A stretch of 64,000 nucleotides of DNA, taken from positions 8,414,993 to 8,478,992 of the forward strand of contig OY540814.1 in assembly GCA_961205875.1 (NCBI GenBank), read 5' to 3'. The notes beneath the pieces are model-generated. The model saw nothing but the letters and a program-made list of their open reading frames with translations. It was not told the origin of the DNA and did not search any database. Below are positions 8,670-45,551 of this stretch, piece by piece. Both the position numbers and the translations under genes were made by a program. The stretch's first letter is position 1; each line of letters starts with the position of its first letter. This stretch comes from Sialis fuliginosa. Lineage: Eukaryota > Arthropoda > Insecta > Megaloptera > Sialidae.

Positions 8670-8889
8670 ATTATCTTGTACTATCAGAGTAATATAAAGT
8701 TGAAGTCTCACTGATATAAATTCCAATAGATAATATATCATAGAATTAAACCCCGTTGAAAGTGCTAGTTAGCTAACATATTTTGTTAACCGGGCATAAA
8801 ACTTCATTTTGGTATGAAAAATATCGCTAAAATACACTCACTAGTGCCATGCACCAATTTCTCGCTTAAATAACCCACAAGTACGTGCA

Positions 8890-9275
8890 GACAGAGATAC
8901 ATTAACGGCAGATCAAAGAATTCCCAAGTGCATAACTACAGAAGTGTTCCCGATCCCCGCATATGCGTTATTGAGATCTCCTCGGCCATATAATAACCAC
9001 GTTGGTAGATTCGCGGGTACGCCGAGAACATGGCAACGGGGGAGGCTGTTTCGCAGAGGGAAGAGAGCGGTGGTAAGATGCGACCTTGAACCTGGCGTCG
9101 CGACGGGAGGGGCGGCCGTGCAGGAGAGCACCACGTGGTGTAGCGACGGCCCTGTTTACGTCGCGCGTTGGTTTTTCATTCATTCATGCGCTTTCAAACA
9201 TCGTCGCAGCTTTTACCCACGCCGCGTGTGCGTATGTGTGTATATGTACGTGTGTACGTGTGTCACGTGAAACTC
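8890..9275. promoter_or_regulatory. GC-rich island, candidate regulatory element
   Basis: This is the most GC- and CpG-rich stretch of the left third. It carries two GCCAT/ATGGC motifs (near 8986 and 9030), GAGAG at about 9063, CACGTG-type E-boxes (near 9132 and 9266) and a purine-rich block. Together these resemble a Polycomb response element or CpG-type promoter. Overlapping short ORFs on both strands are a by-product of GC content and show no domain. I could not place an initiator with confidence. Confidence 0.35.
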
Positions 9276-9339
9276 TATGCTTCCTTTTTTGTTTGGTTAT
9301 GTCGTTTATCCTGCATGTGTTTTGGCAGGTGCAATGATG

Positions 9340-10607
9340 GAAAGTGTGATAATTGGCTCGGATTGTTTTGTAGTATTATGTGCTTAATTTGTTGCAGAAA
9401 TTGTTTTGTATCCTTATTTCTGATTGTATTTAAAAGATTAAACATCAAATATTTGATATTATAATGTCAAATTCTAAAAATCATGTAAATAGAGAAAGTA
9501 TAGCGAAATGTAACGTTCGATAATTTATTAAATACTTGATAAGAATTTGACATTCTAAAATGTTATATAAATTAATGGACTTATGTATAATATAATATAA
9601 ATCTCTTTATTTTTTTTATTATAAAGACACACCTTCAGTCAGTGGCATGTATTTGTGTACTAATATATCCCACCATTTTAATATTATACGTTCATTATAA
9701 ATTGGATATTAACAAATACTTACAATAATAACAAAATTTTCAAAGCAAAAACTCAAATAGTATAATGTGGCTTATATTACAATGCATGCAAAGAAGTAAA
9801 TGTAAAAATAAGTGGCTTATATTTAAAATGTATAAATGGAAATTACTGAATACAATTATTATTATACTGTAATATAAAGTAACAATAAAATATTTACACA
9901 GATATTCATGTGTTTATCTCTGTGATTCATAGAATCTTGGAGAGAAACCAATCAGACAACGGCCTAAGGCTAAACAGAAGAGGGGCGTTGAAGATGTAAT
10001 TTACATACTGTTTTATACATTTAGATAATTGCATGGTTTTGATTTGTAATGGTTTTGCTATTTGGTATAGAGGTAAATTATTTTTTAAAACCTGATTATT
10101 AAATTAAATTGTTCAGGTCAAGTGTCGTTTTATTATTACCCGGTTATTCCGTCGGGTAAATTTTTCTAATTAGTGATTTTTTTAATGGAAATAGTTTTTA
10201 ATTTTAATGAAGTTTATTTGTTATGAAATTACTATTTGTTATTTTTATTTAAAGGTAGTTGAACTTTTATTTATTATATTATATGGAAAACTAATAAAAT
10301 ATATTAGGTATAAGTTTTATTTATTTTTATAGAATTAACATTCATTTAGAAATATTTAAATGATTTTGACAACTTAAAAGTAATATAAAATACTCGTATG
10401 GATATAGACGCACGAAAATTTTCCCGCGAAAATTATTAAAACATGATAAAATTATTTATCTGTGGCATTTATTTTTTGCATTTGAAATTAAGAAATTACG
10501 ATTTCCCAAAAAAGAATTAATTAATGCATAAATATTTAAAATTTTAGTAAAATACAAGTTATTAACTTGTAAAATTTTTAGTTATTTATAAAATAGTTAA
10601 ATAAATA
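9340..10607. other. AT-rich non-coding DNA
   Basis: No gene or paired element ends are seen. A short dyad-like phrase near 9500-9550 is not extensive enough to call. Confidence 0.45.
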
Positions 10608-11833: not shown

Positions 11834-12324
11834 AGGGTTTCGTAGAAAACTACGAAACCTTATAGTTTCGCTCTGTCAATCTGTCTGTCTATATAAATTT
11901 TATACCGATTAAAATGAAATTTGGTATACGGACGAAGACTGATAACCCAAAAACAGAAATGATAAGATTATTGAAAAAAAAAAATTATTTGGACCCCCTT
12001 CTCATAGACTGAAAAGTATATTTAAAAAAAATTTCACTTAATCCGTTAGGTGGGGTGTCTTTAGATAGGTCTCCTAAAATGCAATAAAGTATGTTATATT
12101 TTAATTTTAACCCTCCAGTCATGAATTATTTTCTTTTAAATGTCGTTGTCAGAGCTAACTAAACTATCAATTCAAAAAATCTGAAAAAAATCCAGAATGT
12201 AGCTTTTAATTATAACAAACACTGTAGCAAAAATAGTTTATGGAAAATTTTGAAATAACTTTTTTACAAATCATAATGACTACGGAACCCATCATGTGCG
12301 TACCGAACATGCACTTGGCCGTTT
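11834..12324 (+). repeat. Lepidopteran TAGGGTTTCG...GCACTTGGCCG repeat
   Basis: The element opens 'agggtttcgtagaaaac', passes through 'ctgtctgtctat' and 'aaatgaaatttggtatacgg', and closes 'tacggaaccc...gcacttggccgttt'. This matches a very abundant lepidopteran interspersed repeat (usually TAGGGTTCCGTAC...GCACTTGGCCGG). It lies within the larger TIR transposon and abuts the 3' end of the decayed coding region. It is the clearest lineage marker in the window. The match is from memory, not a search. Confidence 0.7.
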
Positions 12325-12441
12325 CATTTTTTTAATTGTTTCATTTGTTCTTCAAATTCTTTATTTTTTTCAGCTAATCATTCGTTTCTCTTCTTGCAAT
12401 TGTTACGATGGTAATTTCATTATGTTGTAAATCAATTATAT
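12324..12441 (-). pseudogene. Decayed 3' coding segment of the transposon
   Basis: Read on the minus strand, an acceptor-like TTCTAG precedes this segment and its first codon would complete, in phase, the codon left open at 12513. The frame begins IIDLQHNEITIVT; after apparent single-base shifts it continues as QLQEEKRMI and AEKNKEFEEQMKQLKK before a stop. The charged, heptad-like composition resembles a C-terminal coiled coil. Its last bases merge with the adjoining nested repeat, so the true C-terminus is uncertain. Confidence 0.45.
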
Positions 12442-12512
12442 CTAGAATTATAAATAATATAGATAAATATTCAACATTAATTAATTAATTAATTCAAACA
12501 ATCAGTACCTAC

Positions 12513-12884
12513 CATCGAATACAATTAAGGGATCATTAAGTGTCTTTGTAACACCTTCTTCATAATAATATATTGATTCTTTGGTAACCACTGTGATAAT
12601 TTGATCAAATGCGTTTTCATTATTTTGCATTGTAAAGTTTCTGTATCTTTCATCGTACATACCTCGGAGAGGTTAAGATGGTAATTTTAATCTATCTAGT
12701 CCAGTTTATACTAGAACATTTGTTATTTCAATCAATTCTTTCGCCTTTGAAGAATTCAAAACATTTCCTTTCTTAATAATGTGACAGCTGACACTGAATC
12801 GTTTTAGATGTACTATTTTTCCTTCTAATTTTATTTTTTTATTTATTTATTTTGATTAATACTCTTTATTTTTCTAGTTTTCAT
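12513..12884 (-). pseudogene. Decayed transposon-borne coding region
   Basis: On the minus strand one frame reads as plausible protein for about 100 codons, with stretches such as EGKIVHLKRFSVSCHIIKKG, KAKELIEITNVLV, YDERYRNFTMQNNENAFDQI and VVTKESIYYYEEGVTKTLND. It is broken by two in-frame stops (12706-12708 and 12673-12675). An ATG at 12884 follows an acceptor-like TTGTTTTAG but is two frames off the main frame. The segment ends at a strong donor, GATG|GTAGGT, at 12513. I do not recognise the family. Position inside a TIR element suggests a transposase or accessory protein, but a captured host gene fragment is possible. Confidence 0.5.
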
Positions 12885-13182: not shown

Positions 13183-13900
13183 CTATAAAGAAACATGTAT
13201 TTATCAATAATGACTTTACTTAAATCTATGAAATAATTATATCATATCATTTATTAAAGACTTACCTACAATTTGAACTATTATTTATATCGTAAAATAC
13301 TTGAAATATTAAGAATTACATCAAAACAGTGAACTGTACAAATCACTACATTTGTGATAAACATGTCAGTGAACACCAACTTTTATGTAGGCTATAATAA
13401 AATAATTTTTTTCGACTATTTATATTTAAATAATACTTTGATTTTTAGTACTATAGTTAAATTAAAAGGTTTAATGACACTAGGTAAATTTTTTTAGTAC
13501 GCAAAACGAAGTATGAATATTATTAAAATTGATTAATATACGTGTGTTCCACAATAGCCGCTGTTTTTCGCGTTGTGCCATAACTGGGTACTTTACCTTA
13601 CTTCTTGGGTAAATATTTATGTATATAATATGTATGCATACCATGTAAAAATATTTTTTATAATACTGGCAACAAAAAAATGCAATTATTTTTAATTAAA
13701 ATCAAACTGTTTTCAAAACTAATTTCGCACATTGGTACGTATCGAGACTGGTTTTTTTAATTACAAATTGAAGAATTAAGATGTCTGTATAAAAAAGTAG
13801 CAAACAGTCGCTTGTCTATGAATAAAATTAATTAATTTTTTGTTACAATCAAGTGTTAATATAATAACCATAAAATATTGAATTTTCAAAATAATCTCAC

Positions 13901-14363
13901 CTGAAGCGTTGGTAAAATACAAATTTCTGTCCGTAGTCGCCGTTGTGGTTGAGGAAGGTACAGAAAAAGTAAATAAAAACTTTTGGGAAGCTGTTTGCCG
14001 CTACTTCTGAATATTCTTTATTGTTCACATATAAACAATTGAGTTTATGTTAAAATATTGTTCTTAATGTTTATATATATATTATTTTTTATTCACTATA
14101 ATTTATTTAAATGTTCACTCTGTCTTAATTTTAACAAACGTTTGATTAAATCAAAGTCAATTTAAAGTTTATAATTAACTTCACCTTTTCATTCAAACAA
14201 ACTTCATTAAAAACAAAAAAACCGAAGCACGGTACATATATTTATAAAAAACTTTGAGTCACTTGAGATAAATGTATCTTGACACATGTATATTACGTGC
14301 AAACATGTGGAGCAAACAGTGTAACTGCTTCGGAACAACAGCACAAGATGTCACTAACTGACT
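13901..14363 (-). ncRNA. Candidate first exon (5' UTR or lncRNA), minus strand
   Basis: Minus-strand initiator motifs (TCAGTC with its A at 14363; TCAGTT with its A at 14359) are followed about 460 bases later by a near-consensus splice donor, CTTCAG|GTGAGA, with the exon ending at 13901. An open frame runs about 50 codons into the donor, with segments such as NNKEYSEVAANSF and NHNGDYGQKFVFYQRF. It may be an upstream ORF, the start of coding sequence, or chance. No partner exon was recognised further left. The TIR transposon at 10610-13598 would lie in the first intron. Confidence 0.4.
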
Positions 14364-14560
14364 GACGATAAAAACACGATCTAGCATGCGGCTACATGCT
14401 AACCCCCCACCCACAAGTGTGTCTGAGAGAGAGAACGCCTCGCGGCTGCTTTACTCTCCCTTACACTTGCACCGTCTCGCTCGTGCATCTCTCTCTGCCC
14501 GCTGCACTCCGCATAGGTTTACTCCGGTGACGTTTCAGTATCCCATTCCAGAGCTACACA
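14364..14560 (-). promoter_or_regulatory. Candidate core promoter, minus strand
   Basis: A GC-rich island in AT-rich DNA lies directly upstream, on the minus strand, of overlapping TCAGT initiators. It contains GAGA-factor-type repeats (GAGAGAGAGA at 14425-14434, TCTCTCTCT around 14488-14496), about 60 and 125 bases upstream of the start. GAGA plus initiator without a TATA box is a common architecture for insect developmental genes. The plus-strand open frame 14386-14571 is low-complexity and probably not translated. Confidence 0.45.
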
Positions 14561-14870: not shown

Positions 14871-15720
14871 GTCCTGATTGACTGACTGATTCATCATCGC
14901 CCAGCCAAAACCTCTGGACCTAGAAACATGAAATTTCAGGGGTGCCTTACTTTTATGATATAAGCACCCACTCAGAAAGATTTTCAATCTCTACGGGGAT
15001 AAAAGAGGGTTTAAAAGTTTATATGGGAAAAATATTCTTTGGTCGGATTTACTTGAAACTTAAAATAAATACTTTACAATACAAATAATTTAACAAGTAT
15101 TTCATCATTTCCGAAAATTTAACCTCTAAAGGATTACAAAGGGGTGAAAAAGTTTGTATGAAATTTTTTTGTTTGTTTTTATTTACTCGAATATAACTTG
15201 GCACAAATACTCTATAAGACAAATAGCATATTCGACAATTCAACCCCTAGGAGTGGGAGGGGTGTGTGTGTTAAATTTTGATATATTTATCTTCATAACT
15301 ATTTACAATGTTAAGGTAAATTCGAACAAAATAAAATTCAATAAAAATAAAAATTTCGATATTCAACCCCTAATGGCGGGGGTAGACAGAGGGTGAGTTT
15401 TTTGCAATTTTTAACTAAGATCCGATATATTTACGATTTTGTATAGATTAAAAAATAATAATTTAATATATCATCCTCTGTAACGTATGGAGAGTTCTAA
15501 TTAGTTTCATTCGATCCTGCGAAAAAATACTACGGAGGAGAGGGTTTTAAGGAGAAAAACATCTTGCATAGAAACCGAGATATTTACGATTTTGTAAATA
15601 TAATGAATAAAAAGGAAGAACACAATTAAATTTTCATCTCCTGTCTTAAAATATTATTTGTGCTGCCAACATAAAAAAATATTACAATACGGGTGAAGCC
15701 GCGGGTAGGTCCGCTAGTAT
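14871..15720 (+). repeat. RTE-like LINE/SINE-derived repeat
   Basis: It begins 'tcctgattgactgactgat', 'cgcccagccaaaacctc', continues through repeated motifs of the type 'gagatatttacgattttgta' and 'caacccctaatggcggggg', and ends 'gaagccgcgggtaggtccgc' followed by 'tagta'. This is a typical arthropod RTE-type 3' region. Within it, similar paragraphs recur ('caacccctaggagtggg', 'caacccctaatggcggg'), suggesting internal duplication. ORFs 15049-15243 and 15154-15396 lie inside and are not genes. Confidence 0.6.
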
Positions 15721-17159: not shown

Positions 17160-17365
17160 TATTTTTACCAAAATCGCACCGGCTTCGTACGGAAGTTAAT
17201 ATTTCACCCCCTGCCACGTATGGAGGGTTGTAATTAGTTTCATTAGATCCGAAAGGAAAAATACCGCTGGAGTGGGGATTTTATGATGAAAAACAACCCC
17301 CTATCTCGCATAGGAGCCGAGATATTTACGATTTTTTCCGACTTGATTTACTATTATCGTCACTA
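17160..17365 (+). repeat. LINE/SINE-derived repeat, left part of an interrupted copy
   Basis: Phrases 'cctgccacgtatggagggt', 'taattagtttcattagatcc' and 'gagatatttacgattttttcc' match the 14871-15720 repeat. It then reads 'cgacttgatttactattatc', shared with 47403-47430. The copy is interrupted by the nested element at 17366-18039 and resumes after it. Confidence 0.6.
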
Positions 17366-36139: not shown

Positions 36140-36699
36140 TAAGGACTTGAACCGGAATTCATTTATGATTCGGTTTCGGTTCGGGTTCAAATATAAATTT
36201 TGGTTCGGGTTTAGGTTCAGTGTGGTCCAAATATTTGGGTTCAAAAACCGTTATTTTTTAAAGGTCCAGGTTCGGGATCGGGTTCGGGTTCAAGTTTGTA
36301 ATTGAAAGAAAATTATGTTGTTCGAAAAAAAAGTATAATTAACAAATAAAACATTTAATGAAGAAAAAAAGACATTAATAGCTTAAAAAATATTGCTAAA
36401 AAAGAGGGCAAAAAATAAAATAAAATTTTAAAGATTGAATTATCTACTTTTCAGATTATTTTTGCAAATTGAAATGTACTTCAGTTATAGAATTAAAAAA
36501 GAAAGTAAAAAATATGTAATTTTTGTAGTGGACTTGATAACTCACATCATACCAAGATTTCTTGTCAGTACCTTTTATAATCTCTTTTAAAAATCATTTG
36601 GTTCAGGTTCGTTGGCTTTGAATTATAGCGGTTCGGTTCGGGTTTAGGTTAATGAAAAATACGTTTTTTTCGGGTTTCGGGTTCGGATTCAAATCCCTG
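36140..36699. mobile_element. hAT MITE copy, CAGGGACTTGAACC family
   Basis: Related to 44914-45551: both have tandem 'ggttcgggttc' motifs near the ends, a shared middle ('tttgtaattgaaagaaaatta', 'aacaaataaaacattt') and a right end reading 'ggattcaaatccctg'. The left terminus has decayed (TAAGGACTTGAACCGG). No clear target duplication remains. The frame 36114-36305 comes from the motif array and is not a gene. Confidence 0.7.
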
Positions 36700-44913: not shown

Positions 44914-45551
44914 CAGGGACTTGAACCGGAATTTATTTATGGTTCGGGTTCGGTTCGAGTTCAAATATAAATTTCAGTTCGGGTTCGGGTTCAACTTGTT
45001 GCAAACTATTTGGGTTAAAAAATCGTTATTTTTTAGGGTTCAGGTTCGGGTTCAAGTTTGTAATTGAAAGAAAATTATTTTGTTCGAAAAAAATTATAAT
45101 CAACAAATAAAACATTTTCTGAAGAAGAAAGAAACATGAATAGCGATTAAAATATTGCTAGAAAGAAGGGCAAAAAATAAAATTACATTTTGAAAATTGA
45201 AATCCCTATTTTTCTGATTTTTTTTGCAAATTGAAATGTAATTAAGTTATAGAATTCAAAAAGAAAGTAAAAAAATGTAAATTTTAGTAGTTAAATTGAT
45301 AAGTCACATCATACCATAAAATTCCAGTATTAGTACATTTTATAATCTCTTTTAAAAATTACTGGAGAAAAATATTAAAATATTAAAAATAATTTATTGA
45401 ACTTTTTAAAAATATATGGTTATCCATGAAAAGGTTCGGATTCAGATTTAGTTTCATTGACTTTGAAATATAGCGGGTCGGTTCGGGTTCAGGTTAATGA
45501 AAAATACGGGTTTTTTCAGGTTTACTGTTCGGGTTCAGTTGCAAGTCTCTG
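44914..45551. mobile_element. hAT MITE with exact 8-bp target duplication
   Basis: CAGGGACTTGAACCGG at the left end pairs with the right end (reverse complement CAGAGACTTGCAACTG). TTTATCGT flanks both ends exactly (44906-44913 and 45552-45559). Both subterminal regions are arrays of 'ggttcgggttc' repeats. A related but diverged copy is at 36140-36699. The frame 44885-45067 is an array artefact. Confidence 0.9.

Follow-up and report, generated by a model that had tools for sequence, protein, structure and literature searches.

Promoters of the GAGA/initiator type are usual for developmental regulators. In the Drosophila motif table of one source (Table 3, PMC3743134), the initiator (Inr) is given as TCAKTY and the GAGA element is placed at -100 to 0, and the same source associates GAGA with Pol II pausing at early zygotic genes. 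A further account implicates the GAGA site in pausing and describes it as not strictly positioned (PMC10950481). The comparison drawn in PMC8011201 notes a GC-rich zone around transcription starts in the locust, though not in the fruit fly, and describes distant promoters as becoming more frequent as insect genome size grows. For the Drosophila gene pdm3, PMC6965103 describes a first exon that precedes the start codon, and links the first intron to regulation in D. montium; intron 1 was also probed for nascent RNA according to PMC11161047. PMC11925400 links pdm3 to abdominal pigmentation in Drosophila, and reports that its knockout alters the wing-scale colour pattern in a butterfly.

We analyzed a window of 64 kb of Sialis fuliginosa DNA (C6:8414993-8478992 in a 392-Mb genome of 20 contigs), centering on a candidate region (C6:8428893-8429552) which an earlier note had proposed as the best site for a transcription start. 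Like the focused GAGA/Inr developmental promoters of Drosophila, as presented in PMC3743134, the candidate has a TCAKTY initiator, upstream GAGA sequence and no TATA box. Unlike them, it lacks a correctly placed DPE, MTE or pause button, and its second GA run lies beyond -100. Its GC-rich promoter block resembles locust rather than fruit-fly promoters as these are characterized in PMC8011201. If the candidate joins the pdm3-like gene described below, it would share with the Drosophila pdm3 5' region, in the account of PMC6965103, a first exon before the start codon and a first intron linked to regulation; it differs from that region in lying 124 kb from the POU exon, with a predicted junction. 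As in the distant insect core promoters reported in PMC8011201, the start would precede the coding exons by a great distance, and the intervening sequence bears transposable elements; those promoters were measured by oligo-capping in that report, whereas the present candidate is predicted from sequence alone.

Putative promoter block, candidate first exon and donor

The block immediately upstream of the candidate start (Table 1) is 55.7% GC versus 27.6%, contains 12 CpG, and falls in one of the 10 GC islands of the window (200-bp windows, GC at least 43%); just 1.4% of 100-bp windows reach 52% GC. The motifs claimed earlier are all present at the places given. The GA runs, said to lie at -62 and about -125, have their nearest ends 62 and 126 bases upstream of A+1 (14363); the overlapping TCAGTC and TCAGTT initiators are present at 14356-14365; and the donor CAG/GTGAGA, put some 460 bases downstream, is 463 bases away. 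One detail differs, as the proximal run has its GA on the plus strand and therefore reads CTCTCTCTC on the minus strand. With respect to the GAGA/Inr focused promoter, both initiators conform to TCAKTY, and the first 100 bp or so upstream contain a GAGA element at -62 to -70, in the CT orientation, with a further run at -126 to -132.

Table 1. Positions of the features discussed; seven-digit positions are those of contig C6, all others those of the window, negative values lying to its left
Feature	Position	Strand	Remarks
Putative promoter body, GC-rich and CpG-bearing block	14364..14530	-	upstream of candidate start
Distal GAGAGAG run	14489..14495	-	-126..-132 from A+1 at 14363
Proximal GA run, 9 bases	14425..14433	+	-62..-70; minus strand reads CTCTCTCTC
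Overlapping initiators TCAGTC and TCAGTT (n=2)	14356..14365	-	A+1 = 14363 and 14359
Initiator-like TCAGTA, far side of block	14535..14540	+	possible divergent start
Candidate first exon, 463 nt, treated as non-coding	13901..14363	-	6 ATGs, longest ORF 26 aa
Open frame ending at donor	13906..13995	-	strongest third-position C bias; weak hint of coding
5' splice site CAG/GTGAGA	13895..13903	-	G of GT = 13900, 463 bases downstream of A+1
Possible short intron, 116 nt, GC 21.6%	13785..13900	-	first exon base after acceptor = 13784
Longest GC island of window	8821-9380	+	start candidate 9178/9182; mirror of candidate, pointing right
Promoter-like island	38086	+	
Possible rival pdm3 start	-74250 = C6:8340742	-	TATA-like stretch, donor 7.3
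GA-rich, GC-rich island (L014)	84.1-84.3 kb = C6:8499082-8499299		initiator-like sites both ways; ~70 kb upstream of candidate; other possible pdm3 start
GC block near pdm3-like exons	8310893-8311292		other possible pdm3 start

At the candidate start a TATA box is absent, the best resemblance having 3-4 mismatches of 9. The positioned downstream elements (DPE, MTE, pause button), which are frequent but not required in GAGA/Inr promoters, are likewise not in place: the best MTE has 2-3 mismatches of 8 (3 from 14363, 2 from 14359), the best pause button has 1 mismatch of 7 and lies upstream of the start, and the DPE consensus RGWYV at +28 deviates at 1 position when counted from 14363 and at 2 when counted from 14359. 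A perfect RGWYV occurs solely at +34 of the second start (14359), and KCGGTTSK is found with 1 mismatch at +18/+22. Overall, the layout supports a putative GAGA/initiator promoter pointing left, and it appears reasonable to read the block as its promoter body.

The donor that would end the first exon ranks 3 of the 3182 minus-strand GT sites, and GC content drops from 41% to 21% across it; this rank and the splice-site scores below rest on generic frequency tables, as do the amino-acid values, and none of these tables was trained on Sialis fuliginosa. Within the exon, GC content is 41.9% at 14290-14363, 21.8% at 14001-14289 and 41.0% at 13901-14000, such that its middle is as AT-rich as intron. 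The acceptor before 13784 is a good one, with a score of 6.11 (17th among 2477 minus-strand sites); as it follows the donor by 116 nt, the first intron could be short rather than long. The earlier note had taken the whole of the left 13.9 kb as the first intron, a claim for which we found no support beyond the donor itself: a junction with pdm3 would give an intron of as much as about 120 kb, and one with 13784 an intron of 116 bases. The AT skew of these 13.9 kb on the plus strand is -0.0275 (se 0.0099), slight but opposite in sign to that expected for a minus-strand intron.

Hints of coding potential in the exon center on the frame that ends at the donor (13906-13995). Its third-position C bias of 12.0 is the highest among 14,329 open 30-codon windows (next 9.5). 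A bias of 12 is reached by 9 of 150 second-order Markov sequences built from 300-bp blocks and by 4 of 150 built from 1-kb blocks; local mononucleotide shuffles, a more favourable and weaker control, reach it in 0 of 2000 cases. Searches of Pfam and PDB with this frame gave no match, and the sole genome match of the 47-residue frame at the donor is itself. A two-exon coding model, with an ATG at 14192, the donor AAG/GTGAAG at 14184 and an acceptor at 13990, yields a signal-peptide-like N-terminus that stays open to 13901, and is the only such model among donors scoring at least 1.5 and acceptors scoring at least -4. It is weak, as the acceptor scores -3.38 (50th percentile of minus-strand AG), the start context looks poor and four ATGs precede it; we keep it as a lead only. 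Given that the C bias is matched by random sequences, that Pfam and PDB searches gave no match, and that a start can be joined only via a poor acceptor, the exon is treated here as non-coding.

Rarity of the arrangement and its genomic setting

The elements of the candidate are unremarkable singly, but their combination is rare. TCAGTY by itself is common (60 in the window versus 45 expected), and GAGAGAG is present at 7 window loci, plain microsatellites among them. A strict layout was defined as TCAGTY with a (GA)3-type run at -20 to -160 and a donor scoring at least as high as the candidate's own at +50 to +1000. It has 2 matches in the 64 kb, both at the candidate locus, and remains confined to this locus across 224 kb of surrounding chromosome. 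First-order Markov sequences contain it in 0/60, 1/60 and 5/60 cases under whole-window, 1-kb-block and 250-bp-block models respectively, the last of which keeps the GC island. When the initiator is widened to TCAKTY with the strict donor, the same models give 0/60, 4/60 and 10/60; relaxing the donor to 5.0 gives 8 matches in the window versus means of 0.9, 1.0 and 2.0. As the candidate's own score served as the donor threshold and the layout was defined after viewing the site, all these figures overstate the rarity. The minus strand has 458 TCAKTY sites in 240 kb; 5 of them, at 4 loci, combine GAGAG at -20 to -160 with at least 42% GC upstream, and of these loci only the candidate (8.3) and that at -74250 (7.3) have a donor scoring at least 4 within 1 kb.

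The candidate stretch has a single match genome-wide, in a search that skips very common words, indicating that it is not a repeat; a repeat origin was rejected on this ground, the window itself offering one weak 34-bp match. The exact 25-base pattern of the initiator region was not found in the viral contigs. No Pfam domain was detected in the window in six frames at E 0.1, and Rfam at its gathering cut-off and the tRNA search each returned 0 matches. In the 100 kb to the left of the window, the Pfam scan found no domain on the plus strand and no convincing one on the minus strand, where Med15_fungi (E 0.035) was taken as noise; these scans left out two segments, L030 (6 kb) and L017 (10 kb), and would miss Pfam-less and non-coding genes. 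Over the 50 kb rightwards of the window, Pfam showed only a reverse transcriptase.

Several other islands have promoter-like features (Table 1). In the rightward-pointing one at 9178/9182, GAGAG/CTCTC sites are located at -54 and -115 together with tandem TCATTCATTC (TCATTC) initiators, and no donor scoring at least 3 lies within 890 bp. The island at C6:8499082-8499299 is possibly a further promoter of the same domain as the candidate. The claim that the candidate is the best start thus needs restricting: it is the best minus-strand site by layout, but other promoter-like islands exist. In a similar vein, the proposal of a leftward gene or lncRNA start is supported by the layout, by the single copy and by the gene found first leftwards on that strand (see below), but the 13.9-kb intron that had been joined to it is not.

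A POU class VI gene leftwards on the same strand

A genome-wide homeodomain search placed one of its 99 listed matches at C6:8303232-8303321 (E 1.1e-4, above the curated cut-off), on the strand of the candidate and leftwards of it. The minus strand of the surrounding segment (C6:8298993-8308992) encodes a POU domain (PF00157, E 1.5e-23) and pieces of a homeodomain (PF00046, E 5.1e-11). The best solved-structure match of the POU exon (8305140-8305316) is human POU6F1 (3d1n, E 3.7e-17), with the next POU class at 3e-07; being closest to POU6F1, the gene is assigned to POU class VI by best match alone, without a tree. We take pdm3 to be the insect POU class VI gene. In this segment, introns interrupt both the POU domain and the homeodomain of the class VI gene, and it lies tail to tail with plus-strand frames for what is presumably an Unc-93-like membrane protein.

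This pdm3/POU6F-like gene is the nearest one found leftwards on the strand of the candidate. Its POU exon lies 124.0 kb from C6:8429355, the position of the candidate start. A further candidate coding piece at 8308653-8308754, chosen by amino-acid composition alone, lies 120.6 kb from that start; the AG preceding it scores below 3, so that it is a candidate exon at best, and the gene may not require an exon further upstream. The pdm3/POU6F-like gene, about 120 kb to the left on the same strand, is the likely target of the candidate promoter, which is a new result.

We tentatively favor an explanation in which the locus is a distal, probably alternative, GAGA/initiator Pol II promoter of the pdm3/POU6F-like gene, directed leftwards and furnishing a non-coding first exon. 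Under this scheme GAGA-binding factor would open the GC-rich block, and TFIID would direct initiation to the overlapping TCAGTY pair (14363/14359). The resulting first exon of about 463 nt would then be spliced from CAG/GTGAGA over a very long first intron to the pdm3-like gene. The elements, their spacing, the single copy, the shared strand and the lack of a convincing Pfam domain in the 100 kb scanned leftwards are observed; the transcription, the binding of GAGA factor, the extent of the exon and the junction to pdm3 are inferred. Against this explanation stand the absent TATA box and downstream elements, the AT skew of the left 13.9 kb, the AT-rich middle of the exon, the other possible pdm3 starts, the unproven coding piece and the frequency of GC islands in the region. 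Were the block a pdm3 start, it would offer a precise site for regulatory change more than 100 kb from the POU exons and give a purpose to the seemingly empty 64-kb window; in other respects the biology is ordinary, a distant GAGA/Inr promoter serving a developmental gene. A bolder proposal, which we consider rather doubtful, is that several GAGA/initiator islands, scattered across at least 120 and perhaps 190 kb, drive the pdm3-like gene, each with a non-coding first exon of its own. The islands concerned would be those at C6:8340742, 8429355 and 8499082, which all share the strand of the pdm3-like gene, and the tissue pattern would be set by alternative distal promoters rather than by enhancers alone.

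Alternative explanations and other elements of the window

The block may be a real promoter and yet belong to a separate lncRNA near pdm3, or reflect divergent, unstable transcription, rather than serve pdm3 itself; we consider this rather unlikely. The short first intron (13900-13785), with its 17th-ranked acceptor 116 nt downstream, would fit an lncRNA, as would the lack of any Pfam domain on either strand of the window and the similar motifs on both strands of other islands, while the TCAGTA site facing the other way across the block is consistent with divergent starts. By sequence the lncRNA and pdm3 readings look alike, but the donor would be unusually strong for an unstable RNA. We regard as unlikely the alternative that the block is an enhancer or a Polycomb/GAGA-type island of the pdm3 neighborhood, where initiator and donor would be incidental and little or no processed RNA would arise. 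Islands are indeed common (20 stretches with a 200-bp window at 50% GC in 224 kb), and several have GAGAG sites yet lack a donor scoring 4 within 1 kb; however, two overlapping strict initiators next to GA runs, together with a strong donor in the right orientation, exceed the needs of such an island.

Common short motifs might also have coincided by chance in one of many GC islands. The 250-bp-block counts for TCAGTY and TCAKTY speak for this, as do the definition of the layout after the site had been seen and the relaxed layouts, which random sequences yield about 1-2 times per window; nonetheless, this is the sole locus with the strict layout in 224 kb, and it shares its strand with the nearest gene found leftwards. 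We consider coincidence quite unlikely. The proximal CT run furnishes yet another possibility, as TTCTCTCTCTCAG/A forms a fair 3' splice site (AG ending at 14423; score 5.62, rank 35 of 5062 AG sites). Accordingly, CTCTCTCTCAG at 14433-14423 could be an acceptor instead of a GAGA element, bounding an internal non-coding exon of 522 nt (14422-13901) that uses the same donor, with the start further right. Such an exon would have stops in all three frames, would put the GC-rich block on the intron side, against the usual exon/intron contrast, and would leave the initiators unexplained; we hold it to be very improbable.

Additional elements lie close to the candidate. Around 12505-12760, the minus strand contains a protein-like frame with in-frame stops, with a further coiled-coil-like piece near 12300-12400, and we read these as a decayed gene or transposon remnant. 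The longest open piece (12508-12660) was without a match in Pfam and PDB, and the viral contigs gave 17 pattern stretches, of which 0 were confirmed. On the plus strand, about 14875-15719 is occupied by a Helitron-like element, presumed to be such from its TC start, CTAGT end and small 3' hairpin. Shuffled sequences fold just as well as this hairpin (49/200 as good). Part of this element recurs at 17193-17335, and it holds its own TCAGTCAGTC on the minus strand. Further to the right, a GGTTCGG-rich repeat unit (families D3, D6, D7 and D13) is present at 36143-36670 and again at 44917-45515, in direct orientation and about 8.8 kb apart.
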